Assembly (NCBI RefSeq): GCF_005484945.1
Contig: NZ_CP034035.1
Location: forward strand, 2,294,001-2,358,000
Source: Brenneria rubrifaciens
GTDB taxonomy: Bacteria; Pseudomonadota; Gammaproteobacteria; Enterobacterales; Enterobacteriaceae
Length of the DNA stretch: 64,000 nt
Reading direction: 5' to 3'
A program made the position numbers and the translations under genes. Each line of letters begins with the position of its first letter. Position 1 is the first letter of the stretch. Below are positions 11,126 through 64,000 of the stretch, piece after piece. The notes beneath the pieces are model-generated. The model was given only the letters and a program-made list of their open reading frames with translations. It had not been told where the DNA came from and made no database searches.

Positions 11126-11160
11126 GCAGCCCTCCCGTTAACGGCAATGCCGTTGATGGC

Positions 11161-11390
11161 TTATACCCGCAACCACGACTGTCGCCAACCCTGTCTGGTC
11201 TCGGTCGGTTCCCGTCGGGCGTCATAGCGCGCTTGTTCCGCCAGCTTTGTGTAGCGTATTTCCTAGCGTTGCACTCACTTTCCGAACGACGATGACTTGA
11301 ACCGTCAACCAGCGACAACGTCGGCAAATGTCCCGCCCGGTTACGCTCGATGTAATAATCCTTATTGCGCTTTTTACTCTTGTTACTCAA
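11161..11390 (-). pseudogene. Frameshifted small gene between dinG and ybiB
   Basis: A TTG-started frame overlaps the dinG stop (TTGA) and encodes a basic N-terminus, MSNKSKKRNKDYYIERNRAG. The start frame stays open but reads on into ybiB. Near position 11244 the protein-like reading switches frame to EIRYTKLAEQARYDARREP and continues to WRQSWLRV and a TAA at 11161-11163. The 230-base span is one base short of 77 codons, so one deleted base explains both halves and implies an original 76-residue protein. A ribosome site (AGCGGGA) lies within the end of dinG. The family is not recognised. A sequencing error is possible. Confidence 0.5.
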
Positions 11391-13486
11391 GGCATTTCCC
11401 GCTCTTCGATCGGAAAAACCGGTAAAGCGGCAAGCAGTTGAGCGCCATAGCCTTTACTGACCAAACGACGATCGTAAATCACAATTTCGCCAAAGCACTC
11501 ATGGCTGCGGATTAAACGTCCCACTTGCTGTATCAGACTGAACGACGCGCTGGGTAAGCTTTGTACCACAAACGGATGACGTTTCAGGCTTTTGAGCCAT
11601 TCGCCTTCGGTCAAAATCACCGGGCTGTCGATAGGCGGAAAGGCGATTTTGTGAATATGAACCTGCGACAACAGTTCACCTTTCAGATCCAACCCCTCGG
11701 CAAATGACTGCAACCCAATCAGCACGCTGGACTCTCCCGCTTCAACGCGCTGTCGATGCAGTTCAACCAGTCGGTAACGCGGCTTGTCTCCCTGTACCAG
11801 CAGCATCAACCGTAAATCGGTCACCTGCGTCAAAAAAAGCTGCATGGCGCGCTGACTGGCGAACAGCATCAGCATACCGCGATGCGTCTCCTTCTTCAGT
11901 TCCGCTCTGAAAAAGGCGGCCATTTCCGCGACATGCTGTGCTTCGCTCGCCATCAACGGTTCATAACGCATTTTGGGGATCACCAGGCGCCCTTGTTCAC
12001 GGTGATTAAACGGCGAGTCCAGCGAAATAAACCGGTCGCCATCGCGCTCGCTCAGACCTGATAATTCCTGTATCCGGGCAAAACTGTTCAGTGAACGTAA
12101 GGTCGCCGAGGTGACGACCACGTGCGGCACCTTGCTCCACAGCAGTTTTTCCAATTGCTCGCTCACCCGGATACCAGCGCAGTGCAGATGCAAATGGAGC
12201 TGTTTGTCGCGAATATCACGGGTAAGCCATTTGGAAACCGGCGCATTAGAGGATTTTTCCATGGCCGCCAAACGCCACAGCTTGGTCAGCGACTCCAGGT
12301 AGCCAAGCGCCCGGCTCATTTTCAGCAGCGACTGATGCAGACGTACGGCATCATGCTTGGCGGTTTTCTCACTGAGATCGTTGAGCATGAACTCCGTCAG
12401 CGCGCGCAGCGTGTCGGTTAGCTTGAACAGCCGGACACAGATTTCACGCATCTCTTCCGGCATTTGCCCCATTGCAAAGCGATACCCGGCCTCGTGGCCG
12501 TCGCCCGGCAAGAATTGTCCGCAACATTGCGCGAACATCCGTACCTGCTCACGCAGTTCTTCGCAATGGCTGGTCAACCTTTCGCTGTGCGCCAATCGCG
12601 GCGGCGATTTTGGCGCAAACTGCGACATACACAGCCCGATCAACTGCACCAGTTGTTCTAACTGTACGGTGATCATCTCTGGCGTCACATCGCCCGACAT
12701 CTCCAGCGTATCGCGGGCGACATCGGGAATATGGTGCCCTTCATCCAGCACCAGCAGCAGATCTTTCGGATTGGGCAGAACCGATTCGCTTTCCATCGCC
12801 GCCATCACCAGCGCGTGGTTGGTCACCACGACGTCCGCCTGCTCAATCTCACGCCTGGCAACGAAAAATGGACACGCCCGGAAGTAATGACAGTGATGTG
12901 CGAGACAGTTCGCCTTATCGGTGCTCAGCTTGCGCCACAGGCTGTCGTTAATCGATTCCTGATAATGATCGCGTAATCCGTCCCAGGTGCCGCTTTGCAA
13001 CGCTTTCTCAACCCGTGAACACTGCGCCTGTTCCTCCCGGCTGGAAGGCGCCAGTTCGTCCCCCGGAAACAGCGTTAAATCGCCTTGCGCATCGACATCG
13101 GTCGCCAGCCTTGCCAGATTACGCGGACACACATAGCGCCCGCGGCCGAACGCCGCGGTATAGGTCAGTTCAGGGATAAATTTGCGCAATAAAGGCAGGT
13201 CTTTACTGAAAATCTGATCTTGCAACGCCACATTCGCGGTGCTGACCACCAGCGTTCTTTCCTCCGCGCGCCCGATCGCAATGCCGGGGATCAAATAGGA
13301 CAGCGTCTTCCCCACCCCGGTAGGCGCTTCAATCACCAGGTGGCGCGGATATTCTCCCGCCAGCGTCTTAGCGACTTCGGCGATCATCTGTCGCTGGGGA
13401 ATACGAGGAATAAAATCCGGGATCTGCTGTTGCAGGGCCTTATACCATTGACCAATCTGCAATTTTATTGCGGGGGACAGCGCCAT
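11387..13486 (-). CDS. dinG: ATP-dependent DNA helicase DinG
   Basis: This 699-residue XPD-like superfamily 2 helicase (5'-3') unwinds D-loops, R-loops and forks. Walker A APTGVGKT is near residue 53, the DEGHH box near 248, and the Fe-S domain has cysteines in RGRYVCPRNL and NCLAHHCHYFRACPFF. The C-terminus stops just after PVFPIEER, about 20 residues earlier than E. coli DinG, losing the basic tail. The ATG at 13486 (MALSPAIK) matches E. coli. No LexA box is visible in the 136 bases upstream, although the E. coli gene is SOS-induced. Confidence 0.96.
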   Translation of the reverse strand: MALSPAIKLQIGQWYKALQQQIPDFIPRIPQRQMIAEVAKTLAGEYPRHLVIEAPTGVGKTLSYLIPGIAIGRAEERTLVVSTANVALQDQIFSKDLPLLRKFIPELTYTAAFGRGRYVCPRNLARLATDVDAQGDLTLFPGDELAPSSREEQAQCSRVEKALQSGTWDGLRDHYQESINDSLWRKLSTDKANCLAHHCHYFRACPFFVARREIEQADVVVTNHALVMAAMESESVLPNPKDLLLVLDEGHHIPDVARDTLEMSGDVTPEMITVQLEQLVQLIGLCMSQFAPKSPPRLAHSERLTSHCEELREQVRMFAQCCGQFLPGDGHEAGYRFAMGQMPEEMREICVRLFKLTDTLRALTEFMLNDLSEKTAKHDAVRLHQSLLKMSRALGYLESLTKLWRLAAMEKSSNAPVSKWLTRDIRDKQLHLHLHCAGIRVSEQLEKLLWSKVPHVVVTSATLRSLNSFARIQELSGLSERDGDRFISLDSPFNHREQGRLVIPKMRYEPLMASEAQHVAEMAAFFRAELKKETHRGMLMLFASQRAMQLFLTQVTDLRLMLLVQGDKPRYRLVELHRQRVEAGESSVLIGLQSFAEGLDLKGELLSQVHIHKIAFPPIDSPVILTEGEWLKSLKRHPFVVQSLPSASFSLIQQVGRLIRSHECFGEIVIYDRRLVSKGYGAQLLAALPVFPIEEREMP

Positions 13487-13622
13487 GCATTCTCTGTGAT
13501 TATGGAATCTGGCGAACATTGTCCCACAGACCAACCAGCCCGTCAGCCGATATCACGCAACATGCCTTGTTTCAACTGCGGAAGGCTTTATAATTCGTGG
13601 CAAGCTACAAAAGGATAACCTG

Positions 13623-13730
13623 ATGAATTTAAGCAAACTGGGTGTGATCGGGCTGTTCGCTCTGTGCGCCATCGGCGGGATCGGCGGCGTAATGCTGGTG
13701 GGTTACATTGTTATTGTTCACGGCGGTTGA
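13623..13730 (+). CDS. 35-residue single-span membrane protein
   Basis: The ATG at 13623 follows AAGGATAA at good spacing and encodes MNLSKLGVIG followed by a glycine-rich hydrophobic span of about 25 residues ending VIVHGG, then TGA. This is a typical small inner-membrane protein. It is transcribed divergently from dinG (136 bases apart) and converges on idi. I do not recognise the family. Support comes from the ribosome site, the clean hydrophobic profile and the lack of any other explanation for the gap. Confidence 0.65.
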   Translation: MNLSKLGVIGLFALCAIGGIGGVMLVGYIVIVHGG

Positions 13731-13765
13731 CGACAACACCGCGCCATCAGCAACCGCATCGGCAT

Positions 13766-14311
13766 TTATCCGCGGCGGGCGAGTTCAACCTGAAATTGTT
13801 TCCAGTAGGCGGGAATGCGTGAAAATGTCAGCCTGAACCAGGCGGTAAAACGCTCCGGCGACGCATCCATACTGCGTCTAATCTGTTCCAGCGACAGATA
13901 CTCATAATCCGCCGCTTCTGCAGGATTAATCTGGGGAATATCATCCGTTATGCCAAAATGGACATGCCCCACCTCATGTTCAGTGAGGCCGTTATTCAGC
14001 GGCAACCGGTAAGTCAGCGTAAACATGGGCGTCAGCGGGCAGCGTATCCCCATTTCCTGATACAGCCGGCGATGCGCTGCCTGCAAAGTCTTTTCTCCCG
14101 GTGCGGGATGGCTGCAACAGGTATTACTCCACAACCCCCCGCTATGATATTTATCAACCGCCCGTTGCTGAAGCAGCAATTGCTGGCGGGAATTGAACAC
14201 ATAAACGGTGATGGCACGATGTAATAACCCCTTCTCGTGCGCTTCCTGCTTTTCCATCACGCCGGTTGGCTGATCGTTTTCATTAACCAGAATCACTTCC
14301 GTCAACGGCAT
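13766..14311 (-). CDS. idi: Isopentenyl-diphosphate delta-isomerase (type 1)
   Basis: The product is a 181-residue Nudix-fold enzyme that interconverts isopentenyl and dimethylallyl diphosphate for isoprenoid synthesis in the cytoplasm. Cys65/Cys66 in NTCCSHP and the glutamates in EHEVGHVH (about 111-118) match the catalytic and metal-binding residues of type 1 Idi. His31 and the Nudix-like helix (AAHRRLYQEMG) are present. The ATG at 14311 follows AGAAGGGAGAGC. An upstream in-frame start at 14389 would add 26 unconserved residues. Confidence 0.95.
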   Translation of the reverse strand: MPLTEVILVNENDQPTGVMEKQEAHEKGLLHRAITVYVFNSRQQLLLQQRAVDKYHSGGLWSNTCCSHPAPGEKTLQAAHRRLYQEMGIRCPLTPMFTLTYRLPLNNGLTEHEVGHVHFGITDDIPQINPAEAADYEYLSLEQIRRSMDASPERFTAWFRLTFSRIPAYWKQFQVELARRG

Positions 14312-14431
14312 ACCGCTCTCCCTTCTCTGTAAGGTTCCACACGGTATAACACACCCATGTTTGATAACAAACCCATCGCGTGCGATCAAAATAGATGGAG
14401 CGAGTCATCTACGACATTGTCACCGGTGTGG

Positions 14432-14451
14432 CCGCAGGTCTTGACCTGCGG
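14432..14451. repeat. Hairpin between idi and bglX
   Basis: CCGCAGGT and ACCTGCGG pair around loop CTTG, 15 bases beyond the 3' end of bglX. No T-run follows, so it may only protect the bglX mRNA 3' end. Confidence 0.4.
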
Positions 14452-14465
14452 TCGCTGGACGTTGA

Positions 14466-16772
14466 TTACAGCAGCGTGAAACGCTGGCTCTTCACACGTT
14501 GCGAATCCAAACCGATAAACACATCGAATGTACCCGGCTCAACCACCTGCTGCATGCGGGCATTGTAGAACTTCAGCGCCTCCTGATCGATGGGGAAACG
14601 AATCGTGCGGGACTCGCCCGGTTGCAGCATGACTTTCTGGAAGCCGCGCAGTTCTTTCACCGGACGGCTGACAGACGCCACCACATCATGCAGATATATC
14701 TGTACCACAGTTTCCCCTGCCCGATCGCCGGTATTTTTTACCGTTACGCTGGCCGTCAGCGAACCATCACGCTTCATGGTCTGGCTGGACAGACGCACAT
14801 CCGAAACGCTGAATGTGGTGTAGCTCAGGCCATACCCAAATGGATAGAGCGGTCCATTAGCCTCATCGTAATAGTGGGAGGTGTATTTGCCGGGGTTTTC
14901 CGGCGTATACGGTCGTCCTGAGGGTAAATGATTGTAATAGATCGGTATTTGACCGACAGAACGGGGGAAAGACATCGGCAGCTTGCCGGAAGGGTTATAG
15001 TCGCCGAACAGCACATCCGCAATCGCATTGCCCCCTTCGGTGCCGCTGAACCAGGTTTCCAGCAACGCATCCGCCTGTTGATTTTCACGCACCAGCGCCA
15101 GCGGACGGCCGTTCATCAATACCAGAACCAGCGGTTTGCCCGTGGCCTTCAGCGCCGCGATCAGATCACGCTGGCTTTGCGGCAGATCGATATTGGAACG
15201 GCTGGAGGCTTCATGCGCCATACCTGCCGCTTCCCCCACCACCGCCACCACGACATCGGCTTTTTTCGCCGTCTGAACCGCTTCGTCAATCATCACCTGG
15301 GGAGGGCGCTTATCCATCTGCACCGCCTCTTCGTATTGGTTCAGGAAATCGATAATTCCCTGATGGTTACTGACGTTGGCGCCTTTGGCATACAGAATGG
15401 CGGCCTTGTCGCCAACGGCATTCTTCATGCCCTGATAGACGGTGATGGTTTGTTTGGTCACGCCTGCCGCCGACCAACTGCCCATGGTGTCACGCTGGCT
15501 GTCGGCCAGCGGCCCGACGACGGCAATAACGCCCTGTTTTTTCAACGGCAGCGTTTGCAGCCGGTTTTTCAGCAACACCAGACTTTTTCGCGCCATCTCA
15601 CGGGCTTCCAGACGGTGTAAACGACTTTCCGCGTTGGTATCCGCCGGATCGGAACCCGCCGGTCCCAGGTGGCGGTAAGGATCGGCAAACAACCCCATGT
15701 CGTACTTCACATTCAGCACCTGACGGCAGGCCTCATCGATCTCCCGCTCCGTCACCGCGCCGCTTTTCACCAGCCCCGGCAGGTAGCGGATGAAATATTC
15801 ATCGCTCATGCTCATGCCGACGCCGGATTTCAACGCCAAGCGTGAAGCGTCGCGCGCGTCGGCCGCCACGCCGTGTTTGATCAGCTCCTTGATCGCGCCG
15901 TGATCAGTAATGGTGATCCCTTTAAATCGCCATTGATCGCGCAGGATATCTTTCAATAACCAGCTATTTGAGGTCGCCGGCGTACCGTTGATGGCGTTCA
16001 GCGCCACCATGACGCCGCCGCTGCCGGCATCAATCGCGGCTTTATACGGCGGCAGATACTCCTGAAACATGCGCTGCGGGCTCATATCCACCGTGTTGTA
16101 ATCTCGCCCCCCTTCCACCGCGCCGTATAGCGCATAATGTTTTACGCTGGTCATCAGTGAATGACGGGCGGTAACGTCATCCCCTTGAAACGCTTTGACC
16201 ATCACGCCCGCGATTTTGCTGGTCAGCCAGGTATCCTCGCCGAAACCTTCAGACACCCGCCCCCAGCGCGGATCGCGGGTAATATCCACCATCGGCGCCC
16301 AGGTCATATTCAGCCCGTCCTCCGTGGCTTCATACGCCGCCACGCGCGCGCTGCCGGCAATCGCCTCCATATCCCAACTGGAAGCCAGCCCCAGCGCGAT
16401 CGGGAAAATGGTGCGCTGACCATGCACCACGTCATAAGCGAAGAACAGGGGAATTTTCAGGCGGCTGAGTTGCATCACCTGATCCTGCATTGCGCGAATA
16501 TCATGACGCGTTACGGTATTAAAAATCGCGCCGACCTGACCGTTCCTGATCATCTCGCGAATCGCTTCTTTGGGGTTATCCGTCCCGACGCTGATTAACC
16601 GCAACTGACCGATTTTTTCATTCAGCGTCATTTTTTTCATTAAATCAGAGACAAAAGCGTCACGCTGTTGATGTGACGACGTAACCGATGCCGTTACAGA
16701 CGTCATTTCCTGCGCGAAAGCCGGGTTATACGCAAGTCCAATTGCGAAAATCAGAGAAGTAAGCCATTTCAT
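14466..16772 (-). CDS. bglX: Periplasmic beta-glucosidase BglX (GH3)
   Basis: The 768-residue precursor has a signal peptide of about 20 residues ending in AFA, followed by a GH3 TIM barrel, an alpha/beta sandwich and a C-terminal fibronectin III-like domain. The catalytic Asp lies in TITDHGAI and substrate-binding segments such as HYALYGAVEGGRDYN are conserved. It matches E. coli BglX (765 residues), which hydrolyses beta-glucosides in the periplasm. ATG at 16772. For a plant-associated host it could process cellobiose-type oligosaccharides, but that is inference. Confidence 0.95.
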   Translation of the reverse strand: MKWLTSLIFAIGLAYNPAFAQEMTSVTASVTSSHQQRDAFVSDLMKKMTLNEKIGQLRLISVGTDNPKEAIREMIRNGQVGAIFNTVTRHDIRAMQDQVMQLSRLKIPLFFAYDVVHGQRTIFPIALGLASSWDMEAIAGSARVAAYEATEDGLNMTWAPMVDITRDPRWGRVSEGFGEDTWLTSKIAGVMVKAFQGDDVTARHSLMTSVKHYALYGAVEGGRDYNTVDMSPQRMFQEYLPPYKAAIDAGSGGVMVALNAINGTPATSNSWLLKDILRDQWRFKGITITDHGAIKELIKHGVAADARDASRLALKSGVGMSMSDEYFIRYLPGLVKSGAVTEREIDEACRQVLNVKYDMGLFADPYRHLGPAGSDPADTNAESRLHRLEAREMARKSLVLLKNRLQTLPLKKQGVIAVVGPLADSQRDTMGSWSAAGVTKQTITVYQGMKNAVGDKAAILYAKGANVSNHQGIIDFLNQYEEAVQMDKRPPQVMIDEAVQTAKKADVVVAVVGEAAGMAHEASSRSNIDLPQSQRDLIAALKATGKPLVLVLMNGRPLALVRENQQADALLETWFSGTEGGNAIADVLFGDYNPSGKLPMSFPRSVGQIPIYYNHLPSGRPYTPENPGKYTSHYYDEANGPLYPFGYGLSYTTFSVSDVRLSSQTMKRDGSLTASVTVKNTGDRAGETVVQIYLHDVVASVSRPVKELRGFQKVMLQPGESRTIRFPIDQEALKFYNARMQQVVEPGTFDVFIGLDSQRVKSQRFTLL

Positions 16773-61079: not shown

Positions 61080-61155
61080 TCCTCTGTAGTTCAGTCGGTA
61101 GAACGGCGGACTGTTAATCCGTATGTCACTGGTTCGAGTCCAGTCAGAGGAGCCA
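61080..61155 (+). tRNA. asnT: tRNA-Asn (anticodon GTT)
   Basis: The 76-base tRNA has acceptor arm TCCTCTG/CAGAGGA, anticodon loop CTGTTAA (GTT), T loop TTCGAGT and encoded GCCA end. It is identical in form to E. coli tRNA-Asn. Its 3' end is a known attachment site for integrative elements, and an integrase gene begins 162 bases downstream. Confidence 0.98.
61138..61155 (+). other. Presumed left attachment site (attL) in the tRNA-Asn 3' end
   Basis: P4-type integrases recombine in tRNA 3' ends. The sequence from the T arm to CCA (GTCCAGTCAGAGGAGCCA) is the expected core. A second copy would mark the right end, which is beyond the window, so this is inferred from integrase position only. Confidence 0.5.
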
Positions 61156-61278
61156 TTTTCCTGTTTTCATGCATCCTTGCGAATCCCTATTTGTACATTG
61201 ATTCAACAGGTTAGCGTGAAAATCCTTCCCGATGCGTTTCTAGTTTTCCCTCCGCATCGGGAAAAAATGGTGGTCAGA

Positions 61279-61318
61279 TTTGGGGTCAAGTTGGTTCGAT
61301 GACGGAGTGACCCCCAAA
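61279..61318 (+). promoter_or_regulatory. Inverted repeat overlapping the integrase start
   Basis: TTTGGGGTCA (61279-61288) and TGACCCCCAAA (61308-61318) are complementary apart from one extra C. The right arm ends at the integrase ATG. It could be an integrase arm site or an autoregulatory operator, or hide the start codon in an mRNA hairpin. Confidence 0.45.
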
Positions 61319-62580
61319 TGTCTCTTAACGACTCAAAAATCCGCAACTTAAAATCATCCGCTAAACCCTTCAAAGTTTCCGATTCTCACGGCCTGTACCT
61401 TTTAATCAATCCAGGCGGTTCACGTCTCTGGTATCTCAAATATCGTATCGACGGCAAAGAGTCCCGCCTCAGTTTAGGCGCTTATCCTAATGTATCGCTG
61501 ACCGACGCCCGGCAACAACGCGATGGCATCCGCAAGATGCTGGCGCAGAATATCAACCCGGCGCAACAGCGTGCCGCTGAGCAGGCGGCGCGTTCACCGG
61601 TTAAGCATTTCAAGACCGTGGCGCTGGGCTGGCATAAAAGCAATAAAACATGGTCGGAGAACCATGCCGCCCGCCTGCTTGCCAGCCTGAACAATCACGT
61701 TTTCCCGGCGATGGGTCATCAGCCGATAACGGAACTCAAAACCCGGCACTTCACCGTCCTGCTGAAAGGTATCGAAGAAAAAGGCCTGCTGGAGGTGGCG
61801 TCCCGTACCCGACAGCACCTGTGCAATATTATGCGTTACGCAGTTCAACAAGGATGGGTGGAAAATAATCCGGCGCTGAATCTGGTCGGCGTAACGGCTC
61901 CGCCGGTCAGGCGCCATTATCCGGCCCTGCCGCTGGAGTGTCTGCCGGAATTGCTGGAACGCATTGAAGGCTATCGGCAAGGCCGGGAGTTAACCCGGCT
62001 GGCGGTACTGCTCACCCTGCACCTGTTTATCCGTTCCAGCGAACTGCGTTTCGCAAGGTGGAGTGAAATTGATTTCAAAAACAGAATCTGGACCATTCCC
62101 GCTACCCGCGACGCTATTGCCGGCGTCCGCTACTCCGGGCGTGGCGCGAAAATGCGTACGCCGCATATCGTGCCGCTGTCCAGGCAAGCCATCGATATAC
62201 TGAAGCAGATTCAAGCGATTTCAGGCCATCTGGAACTGGTGTTTCCCGGCGACCATAACCCGTATAAACCCATGTGCGAAAACACAGTCAACAAAGCATT
62301 GCGACTAATGGGCTATGACACCAAAAAGGATGTCTGCGGTCACGGATTCCGCGCAATGGCGTGTAGCGCATTAATGGAGTCAGAGCGTTGGTCGCAAGAT
62401 GCTGTCGAACGCCAGATGAGCCACCAGGAGCGCAACAGCGTGCGGGCGGCCTATATCCACAAAGCCGCACATCTTGAAGTCCGCAAAGCGATGATGCAGT
62501 GGTGGTCGGATTTTATTGAAATAAACAGTGAAGGCTTTGTTCCACCGTACGTATATGCAAAACAATATAAAATTGCCTGA
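61318..62580 (+). CDS. int: P4-type tyrosine integrase
   Basis: The 420-residue product has an N-terminal DUF4102-like arm-binding domain (SKIRNLKSSAKPFKVSD and LSLGAYPNVSLTDAR), a central core-binding domain and a C-terminal catalytic domain with Arg239 (IRSSELR), His342-Gly-Phe-Arg345, His369 and the nucleophile Tyr379 (AAYIHKA). All catalytic residues are intact. It reads away from tRNA-Asn, the standard arrangement for islands inserted at asn tRNA genes. The ATG at 61318 lacks a clear ribosome site. Confidence 0.93.
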   Translation: MSLNDSKIRNLKSSAKPFKVSDSHGLYLLINPGGSRLWYLKYRIDGKESRLSLGAYPNVSLTDARQQRDGIRKMLAQNINPAQQRAAEQAARSPVKHFKTVALGWHKSNKTWSENHAARLLASLNNHVFPAMGHQPITELKTRHFTVLLKGIEEKGLLEVASRTRQHLCNIMRYAVQQGWVENNPALNLVGVTAPPVRRHYPALPLECLPELLERIEGYRQGRELTRLAVLLTLHLFIRSSELRFARWSEIDFKNRIWTIPATRDAIAGVRYSGRGAKMRTPHIVPLSRQAIDILKQIQAISGHLELVFPGDHNPYKPMCENTVNKALRLMGYDTKKDVCGHGFRAMACSALMESERWSQDAVERQMSHQERNSVRAAYIHKAAHLEVRKAMMQWWSDFIEINSEGFVPPYVYAKQYKIA

Positions 62581-62991
62581 CTCTAATCCCATGTTAGTGC
62601 CTGGGGACCTACCCCGGGCTTCCAGATATCTCATCGCCACCTCCATAACGCTCCCCTTACATCCCATTCTCAACACGCAAGACAACAGTTTTTCTGGCGG
62701 TATTCTGCAAACCCAACAATCGGTCAACATCATTCTCAGGGTGTTTCAGTAGAGCTGAAGAGCCGTTAAACAGCACTATTAGGGGAAAACACATATCTAA
62801 AAAATATTTCCATAAGTCACAAAAAACACATAGATTATTGATTTTTTGATGTTTTTTATTTTCATTTTGTGTCGTGCATAATAAAAATTTCTTTTAAAAG
62901 AAATATATTTCTAAATGTTGACTTTAAGCACATGAGTGGTTAATTATTAATCAATAAGCTAATAAATCCTTCAAACTTGCAGGGGGTTGAA
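62581..62991 (+). other. AT-rich region between int and the oxygenase gene
   Basis: The 411-base region has no gene. The last 230 bases are strongly AT-rich and hold overlapping palindromes (62887-62912) and a promoter-like TTGACT-N17-TAATTA (62918-62946). This is typical of H-NS-bound acquired DNA. Confidence 0.5.
62887..62946 (+). promoter_or_regulatory. Candidate operator and promoter of the oxygenase gene
   Basis: An 18-base palindrome with core TTTCTTTTAAAAGAAA (62887-62904) overlaps a 14-base palindrome AGAAATATATTTCT (62899-62912). Immediately downstream TTGACT (62918-62923) and TAATTA (62941-62946) are 17 bases apart. About 46 bases then lead to the ATG at 62992. Confidence 0.5.
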
Positions 62992-64000
62992 ATGGCAATT
63001 TTGATGAGTCAATGTGAAGATGGAAATGTATTCAGCTTTATAGTCAAAGGGTTACCTGTTACTGGCATACAACATTTTTTTACTGAATCAGCAGCACAAA
63101 TCCGTACTCAACTACTTGACCGTGGAGCCGTCATCATCCGTGGTGTGGAAGAAAGCCGGGATCCAGATGTTTTTGAACGAATCATGGCATCTTTAGGCTT
63201 CCCTACCAGGGATTATATCGGGGGTTCTTCCCCACGCTCGTCAGTTAAGGGCAAAGTAATGGAAGCTACTCGGACACCTCCTTCATGGTCAATTATCCTT
63301 CACCAGGAAATGACCTATGTAAAACACCCACCCGAAATTATTGCTTTTTCCTGCGTCGAACCTGCCCGTAAAGGCGGCTTCTCAACTATTGGTGATATGC
63401 GCCGAATTAAACATTTGGTCGACCCCACCACATTACAATTACTGACGGAACGGGGTCTAAAACTACGCAGGACATTACCCGGCGAAAAACGGGTTCATTT
63501 AAAACCCGGTATTAAAAAAAGCTGGCAGGAGGCACTTTCAGCAATAACGAAAGAAGAAGCTGAATTTGTTTGTCGCTCTCGAGGCTGGGACTTTGAGTGG
63601 TGGAATGATGATTTAATTCTCTGGCAGGATTGTATTTCCCCAATGCGGCAACACCCCCTCAAAAGCGAGCTCATCTGGTGCAACCAGGCTCATTTCTGGG
63701 GTGCTGCAGCAATGATCGAATGGGCCCGGATTGATTCCAGATATGATGATGAAAATGAATTAACAAAGGCTACACAGACGAATCCCGAACTTCTGGAATC
63801 TATGTGTTTTGGGGATGGGGACCCTCTTCCAGAAGAGCTAACGCTCAATTTATTTAATCTGGTCCAGGGGGTTGAGCAGGAGGTGAGCCTGCACAGCGGG
63901 GATATATTACTTCTGGATAATTTACAGTTTGCGCACGGCAGGCGTGCATTCTCCGGAAAAAGAGAAATTAACGTAATCATTGCCGACTGGGGTGAGAATT
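62992..64000 (+). CDS. SyrP/clavaminate-synthase-like Fe(II)/2-oxoglutarate oxygenase, 3' end missing
   Basis: At least 336 residues, running off the window. The fold is TauD/TfdA. The facial triad is His104-x-Glu106 (LHQEMTY) and His315 in DNLQFAHGRRAF, with Arg324 in SGKR likely to bind 2-oxoglutarate. HxE instead of HxD and the HGR tail are typical of the subgroup that includes SyrP, AsnO, AmbC/AmbD and clavaminate synthase, enzymes that hydroxylate amino acids in non-ribosomal peptide and antimetabolite pathways. The ATG at 62992 follows GGGGG. AT-rich codon use differs from the core genes, fitting an acquired island. Confidence 0.82.
   Translation, partial: MAILMSQCEDGNVFSFIVKGLPVTGIQHFFTESAAQIRTQLLDRGAVIIRGVEESRDPDVFERIMASLGFPTRDYIGGSSPRSSVKGKVMEATRTPPSWSIILHQEMTYVKHPPEIIAFSCVEPARKGGFSTIGDMRRIKHLVDPTTLQLLTERGLKLRRTLPGEKRVHLKPGIKKSWQEALSAITKEEAEFVCRSRGWDFEWWNDDLILWQDCISPMRQHPLKSELIWCNQAHFWGAAAMIEWARIDSRYDDENELTKATQTNPELLESMCFGDGDPLPEELTLNLFNLVQGVEQEVSLHSGDILLLDNLQFAHGRRAFSGKREINVIIADWGEN

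Follow-up and report, generated by a model that had tools for sequence, protein, structure and literature searches.

A predicted phenylalanine aminomutase and ATP-grasp ligase gene cluster adjoins the integrase of an ICEKp-like element at a tRNA-Asn gene of Brenneria rubrifaciens

The stretch of Brenneria rubrifaciens DNA analyzed here, 64,000 nucleotides long (the window; bases 2294001-2358000 of the single 4,028,093-base contig of a 4.03-Mb genome, genome coordinate being 2294000 + window base), ends inside an integrative element inserted at a tRNA-Asn gene. Right behind the integrase of this element, an oxygenase gene heads an operon-like run of eight co-directional genes. Judged from its sequence, this run is a real biosynthetic cluster, of a gene combination apparently undescribed in the open-access literature, carried on a mobile element of a known kind; chemistry, activity and mobility are predicted. 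We give roughly even credence to the full reading, in which an element with the architecture of ICEKp, the yersiniabactin integrative and conjugative element of Klebsiella, carries at tRNA-Asn eight genes that would make a dipeptide-type antimetabolite from phenylalanine; its role as a toxin or antimetabolite is something we infer. The first-pass annotation of the window had proposed a biosynthetic cluster at the integrase end of the island, headed by a tailoring enzyme, and the run does start with the oxygenase. As it had advised, the sequence was followed past window base 64000, where an aminotransferase, an ATP-grasp protein and a major facilitator superfamily (MFS) transporter appeared in the same run, with a giant non-ribosomal peptide synthetase (NRPS) later. 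The island cluster it proposed is thereby supported with two corrections: it is built on an aminomutase and an ATP-grasp ligase rather than on an NRPS, and one of its genes is interrupted here by an IS21 element.

The integration site, a tRNA-Asn (gtt) gene, lies at window 61080-61155 on the plus strand (ARAGORN). The intact P4-type tyrosine integrase that had been placed 162 bases past it was confirmed in open reading frame (ORF), domains and spacing: the gene (window 61318-62580, plus strand) encodes 420 residues with arm, central and catalytic domains (Arm-DNA-bind_3, Phage_int_M and Phage_integrase; PF13356, PF22022, PF00589), and exactly 162 bases separate it from the tRNA. The last 17 bases of the tRNA-Asn gene (window 61139-61155) were used as the query for the ends of the element. 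This 17-mer is copied exactly in three other stretches examined, two of them at tRNA-Asn genes (L014, L016), whereas the third (L015) is at the start of an integrase that has no tRNA gene beside it. Furthermore, the genome holds three more copies of the tRNA end plus integrase, at 97-99% identity over 627-1463 bases, one of which is partial.

The first gene of the cluster encodes a TauD/TfdA-family Fe(II)/2-oxoglutarate oxygenase (PF02668, E 4e-23), as had been expected of the gene next to the integrase. It occupies window 62992-64000 on the plus strand, open to the window end, and its stop codon (genome 2358000-2358002) ends two bases outside. Its composition is AT-rich, again as claimed beforehand, with 45.9% GC against 52.4% for the whole window. 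The earlier label of SyrP/AmbC-like fits loosely: the protein has the TauD/clavaminate-synthase fold with the HxE...H residues by which that type is recognized, but the two proteins of solved structure that it matches in sequence are At3g21360, which is clavaminate-synthase-like, and a TauD/TfdA protein. Residues H104, E106 and H315, which by analogy we take to be the candidate iron ligands, are invariant in all 19 aligned sequences (its own plus 18 of 34 search matches).

The second gene (genome 2358029-2359612, plus strand, like all that follow) likely encodes a phenylalanine aminomutase, predicted to convert L-Phe to beta-Phe. It scores 860.4 on the D-beta-Phe-forming model TIGR04475, against a curated cut-off of 800, it carries the T-S-G triad (residues 155-157) that forms the methylidene-imidazolone (MIO) group, and its closest solved relative is AdmH. 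Gene 3 (2359612-2360685) encodes a HisC-like aminotransferase and gene 4 (2360754-2361479) a tRNA-editing protein that keeps the zinc-site residues (HxxxH and CxxxH; H117, H121, C205 and H209 are invariant in 29 aligned sequences). Because this protein reaches 110.6 on the AlaXM equivalog model, under the cut-off of 300, we limit its label to AlaX-like. Gene 5 (2361521-2362546) encodes a conserved protein of 341 residues without any Pfam or NCBIfam match, 66-78% identical across the five relatives described below. Gene 6 encodes a D-lactate-dehydrogenase-like flavoenzyme and is split into two open frames around IS21 (2362590-2363531 and 2365623-2366075); it is followed by genes for the ATP-grasp ligase (gene 7; 2366122-2367354) and for the MFS transporter (gene 8; 2367351-2368538). 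The predicted structure of the ligase has the fold of L-amino acid ligases, since such a ligase is the top match by both methods and BacD and RizA are within both lists; by sequence it has no PDB match at E 0.001, BacD, RizA and 3vot included. The GC content of the cluster genes is 40-48%.

The gene set was also found in other bacteria. A scan with the oxygenase alignment, covering 84,980 species by a single genome each, gave 26 pattern matches, and five of these encode relatives: Candidatus Pantoea gossypiicola, Pseudomonas koreensis, P. parakoreensis, P. botevensis and P. viridiflava. All five keep the order of all eight genes, with proteins 50-85% identical (tblastn), and in each the flavoenzyme gene is a single uninterrupted ORF of 451-460 codons. 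Thus, as far as sequence comparison goes, the set and its order are conserved across six genomes including this one. A ninth ORF (318 residues) is matched in one of the five relatives, the Pantoea, and the four Pseudomonas loci showed no tRNA gene. Searches with single proteins extend the list to Rosenbergiella nectarea (ligase 98%, AlaX-like protein 91%), relatives labelled Klebsiella (63-73%) and more Pseudomonas. The first-pass annotation had named presence in all relatives as a sign of core genome. The cluster does not belong to the core genome: of nine genomes of the genus searched at E 1e-100, one encodes the aminomutase, its own, and none of the eight others does. Among genomes sampled at higher ranks, each sample including this genome, the ligase was found at E 1e-40 in 1 of 394 from the order (its own) and in 2 of 369 from the class (its own and one 38% identical), and the oxygenase at E 1e-20 in 2 of 246 from the family (its own and one 28% identical); these are sample counts, and the known Pantoea and Pseudomonas carriers are not among the matches.

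Beyond the cluster lie genes for an AlpA-type protein, which is an excisionase candidate, and, by Pfam matches, for VirB3/VirB4, a VirB11-like protein (T2SSE) and T4CP coupling proteins. The second tRNA-Asn 3' end, for which a search had been recommended, was located at genome 2440713, 85.6 kb downstream of the intact left repeat, as a degenerate copy: one base is missing and the outermost base of the 17-mer also differs. It sits within a 258-bp stretch that matches the tRNA-Asn/integrase junction at 82%. Taken together, the sequence features are those of an 86-kb tRNA-Asn island of integrative-conjugative type, ICEKp-like. In the relative G218, sequence that matches the far side (2446493 on, with a peroxidase gene) lies 2.4 kb behind tRNA-Asn, against 91 kb here, and what stands between the two we read as a broken integrase remnant. 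The tRNA-Asn gene is present at this place in all eight genus relatives. Since blast places integrase-like sequence behind it in three (L056, L059, L060), and a fourth (L062) has a match to the tRNA end and integrase start about 4.5 kb away, the site has been used more than once. The P. gossypiicola cluster, too, lies behind tRNA-Asn and an integrase; VirB genes are present, matching conjugation DNA (72-83%) is on the same contig, and another match of the tRNA/integrase type follows about 14 kb further.

In the available part of its description (PMC6202445), ICEKp has a P4-like int at tRNA-Asn, a cluster, xis/virB/mob genes, right cargo and 17-bp tRNA-Asn repeats, and the right cargo of ICEKp10 is the large colibactin cluster of about 51 kb. 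Compared with that account, the Brenneria element shares the left P4-like integrase at tRNA-Asn with adjoining biosynthetic cargo, then the excisionase-like gene, the VirB-type type IV secretion system, the coupling protein, a variable right cargo and repeats of the tRNA-Asn end; as in ICEKp10, the right cargo holds a large cluster, here the giant NRPS. It differs in that its right repeat is one base short, in that its mobility is predicted, and in that the aminomutase cluster occupies the place of the 29-kb yersiniabactin locus. ICEKp in the strict sense, with that locus adjoining the integrase, is thus not what we have here; it is an ICEKp-like element with biosynthetic cargo other than yersiniabactin beside its integrase.

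For the cluster itself, we propose from the gene families a chemically coherent pathway. In its first step the aminomutase would shift the amino group of L-Phe, forming beta-phenylalanine, which the TauD-type oxygenase could hydroxylate at C2 into a phenylisoserine-like compound. The D-2-hydroxyacid-dehydrogenase-like flavoenzyme would oxidize this alcohol to a 2-keto acid, and amination at C2 by the HisC-like aminotransferase would yield 2,3-diamino-3-phenylpropanoate. The ATP-grasp ligase would then join this diamino acid to a second amino acid, and the MFS protein is predicted to export the peptide, which competitors may take up and cleave, as with bacilysin. The AlaX-like protein would protect the producer by hydrolyzing tRNAs to which the toxic amino acid has been wrongly attached.

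In the bacilysin pathway, BacD is the ligase, BacE the MFS transporter and BacF the aminotransferase. The present cluster likewise holds an ATP-grasp ligase with the L-amino-acid-ligase fold, an MFS transporter and an aminotransferase in a single gene run. It differs in having a phenylalanine aminomutase and in a ligase without any PDB sequence match to BacD. A search limited to the cluster recognized no BacA-type prephenate decarboxylase among the eight genes, seven of which match other families and one, gene 5, none (Pfam, NCBIfam), and we do not file the run as a bacilysin cluster. With the andrimid cluster it has in common a phenylalanine aminomutase of the NCBIfam equivalog of AdmH; unlike andrimid, none of its eight genes has a polyketide synthase or NRPS domain by Pfam, and ATP-grasp, AlaX-like, HisC-like and flavoenzyme genes are found instead.

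The IS21 inside the flavoenzyme gene (genome 2363504-2365628) is flanked by a five-base target duplication and is 99.8-99.9% identical to two more copies in the genome (2388410-2390534 and 2530291-2532415), for which reason the insertion looks recent, an apparent transposition within this genome. Since it interrupts a cluster gene, the strain may not make the product, and the flavoenzyme step is likely lost here unless another enzyme stands in. It is about as probable as its opposite that the cluster in this strain is a non-producing remnant, in which IS21 ends the pathway and may also block expression of the ligase and the exporter. However, the other seven genes are open, with lengths close to those of the Pantoea set, so decay is at most beginning, and another dehydrogenase or readthrough expression may compensate. 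This explanation is compatible with dipeptide production in other hosts, and because Pseudomonas holds uninterrupted copies, the cluster can be put to the test there.

The chemistry of the ligase raises a further alternative, rather unlikely in our view: the cluster would yield a non-proteinogenic amino acid of the beta-Phe or phenylisoserine type in free form, the ATP-grasp enzyme making some other amide, a carboxylated or a phosphorylated intermediate. Two observations argue in this direction and weigh against a dipeptide: the Pfam ATP-grasp_4 match of the ligase is marginal (27.7 against 27), and the fold neighbors include PurT, PurK, GAR synthetase and biotin carboxylase. The rank of L-amino acid ligases in both fold searches favors the dipeptide, and so does the overlap of the MFS gene with the ligase gene, which resembles the bacilysin pairing of ligase and exporter.

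It would also be conceivable, though improbable, that the cluster provides the giant NRPS of the island with a tailored beta-amino acid, as SyrP- or AdmH-type enzymes do for NRPS lines; syringomycin and andrimid, where TauD and aminomutase enzymes have this feeding role, set a precedent. This NRPS (genome 2394502-2438074; L067-L070) comprises two ORFs of 8596 and 5934 residues; the four pieces scanned contain at least 13 stretches each of adenylation and condensation type and two of thioesterase type, and it shares the element with the cluster. It lies, however, about 26 kb beyond the cluster, past the conjugation module, and its GC content is 60.7% compared with the 40-48% of the cluster genes. 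Moreover, P. gossypiicola keeps the cluster, but none of the ORFs listed for the 39.9 kb behind it exceeds 915 residues, and at the four Pseudomonas loci no ORF of NRPS size is listed over about 1.6 kb on the downstream side and 10 kb on the upstream side, the stretches searched for NRPS in these genomes. Equally improbable is a catabolic role, in which Phe or beta-Phe would be taken up and degraded as a source of nitrogen or carbon: aminotransferases and hydroxyacid dehydrogenases are frequent in catabolic pathways, an amino-acid permease gene adjoins the cluster in Pseudomonas (L022 by Pfam; similar ORFs by eye in L020, L021 and L023) and beta-Phe is degraded via transamination in Paraburkholderia according to the accessible part of PMC6150868, but such a role leaves no obvious use for an ATP-consuming ligase or an AlaX-like editing protein, and the distribution is sporadic, at a tRNA-Asn element in two hosts.

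Should the dipeptide reading be true, the cluster would lead from phenylalanine to a peptide antimetabolite without an NRPS, and the editing protein would be a possible self-immunity gene, usable as a handle for searches. Because public data contain relatives of the cluster proteins under the label Klebsiella, the product could matter when bacteria of the gut and of plants compete. More tentative, and in our judgment doubtful, is the wider proposal of an undescribed NRPS-free dipeptide class built on 2,3-diamino-3-phenylpropanoate, made by an eight-gene set with AlaX-like self-immunity that ICEKp-like elements would carry as exchangeable cargo between Pantoea, Rosenbergiella, Klebsiella and this genus. 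No description of the eight-gene cluster was found in titles and abstracts of the open-access literature, which omits most subscription papers. The words aminomutase, ATP-grasp, ammonia-lyase, aminotransferase and dioxygenase are absent from the main text of a Pantoea survey of 12 known clusters (PMC11350110) and from that of PMC7744662. As far as the available portions of these sources go, the cluster resembles the Pantoea antibiotic clusters in being small and of low GC, and PNP-3 also in its eight genes and MFS transporters (PMC9570785). PNP-3 is described from Pantoea only, with 8487 bp, and one strain has it inside a region predicted to be of phosphonate/NRPS type; the present cluster, which is also in Pseudomonas, is set apart from it by that description.

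The right part of the element carries other genes. After the NRPS, whose product is possibly large and of lipopeptide type, comes an ABC transporter (genome 2438264-2439931). A YopJ-family serine/threonine acetyltransferase, possibly an injected effector, is encoded on the minus strand (2390955-2392043; PF03421, E 1.5e-78); the IS21 copy at 2388410-2390534 adjoins this gene, and a fourth IS21 copy, 94% identical, lies elsewhere in the genome, at 1313496-1315645.

A second element is located at another tRNA-Asn gene (genome about 1275653-1360679, minus strand), with two more integrase copies (1359172-1360440 and 1295561-1296829). Over 18.5 kb its conjugation module matches that of the element described here at 95-99% identity; its cargo is different, and inspection by eye showed radical-SAM-like cysteine motifs in three ORFs (1309044-1312001). 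Finally, the Pantoea stewartii DC283 plasmid pDSJ10 (L066) contains at 11134-15325 a possible distant cousin of the cluster, consisting of a short TauD-type gene, an ATP-grasp gene (30% identical), two MFS-annotated genes, an aminoacyl-tRNA-ligase-related gene and a racemase gene.
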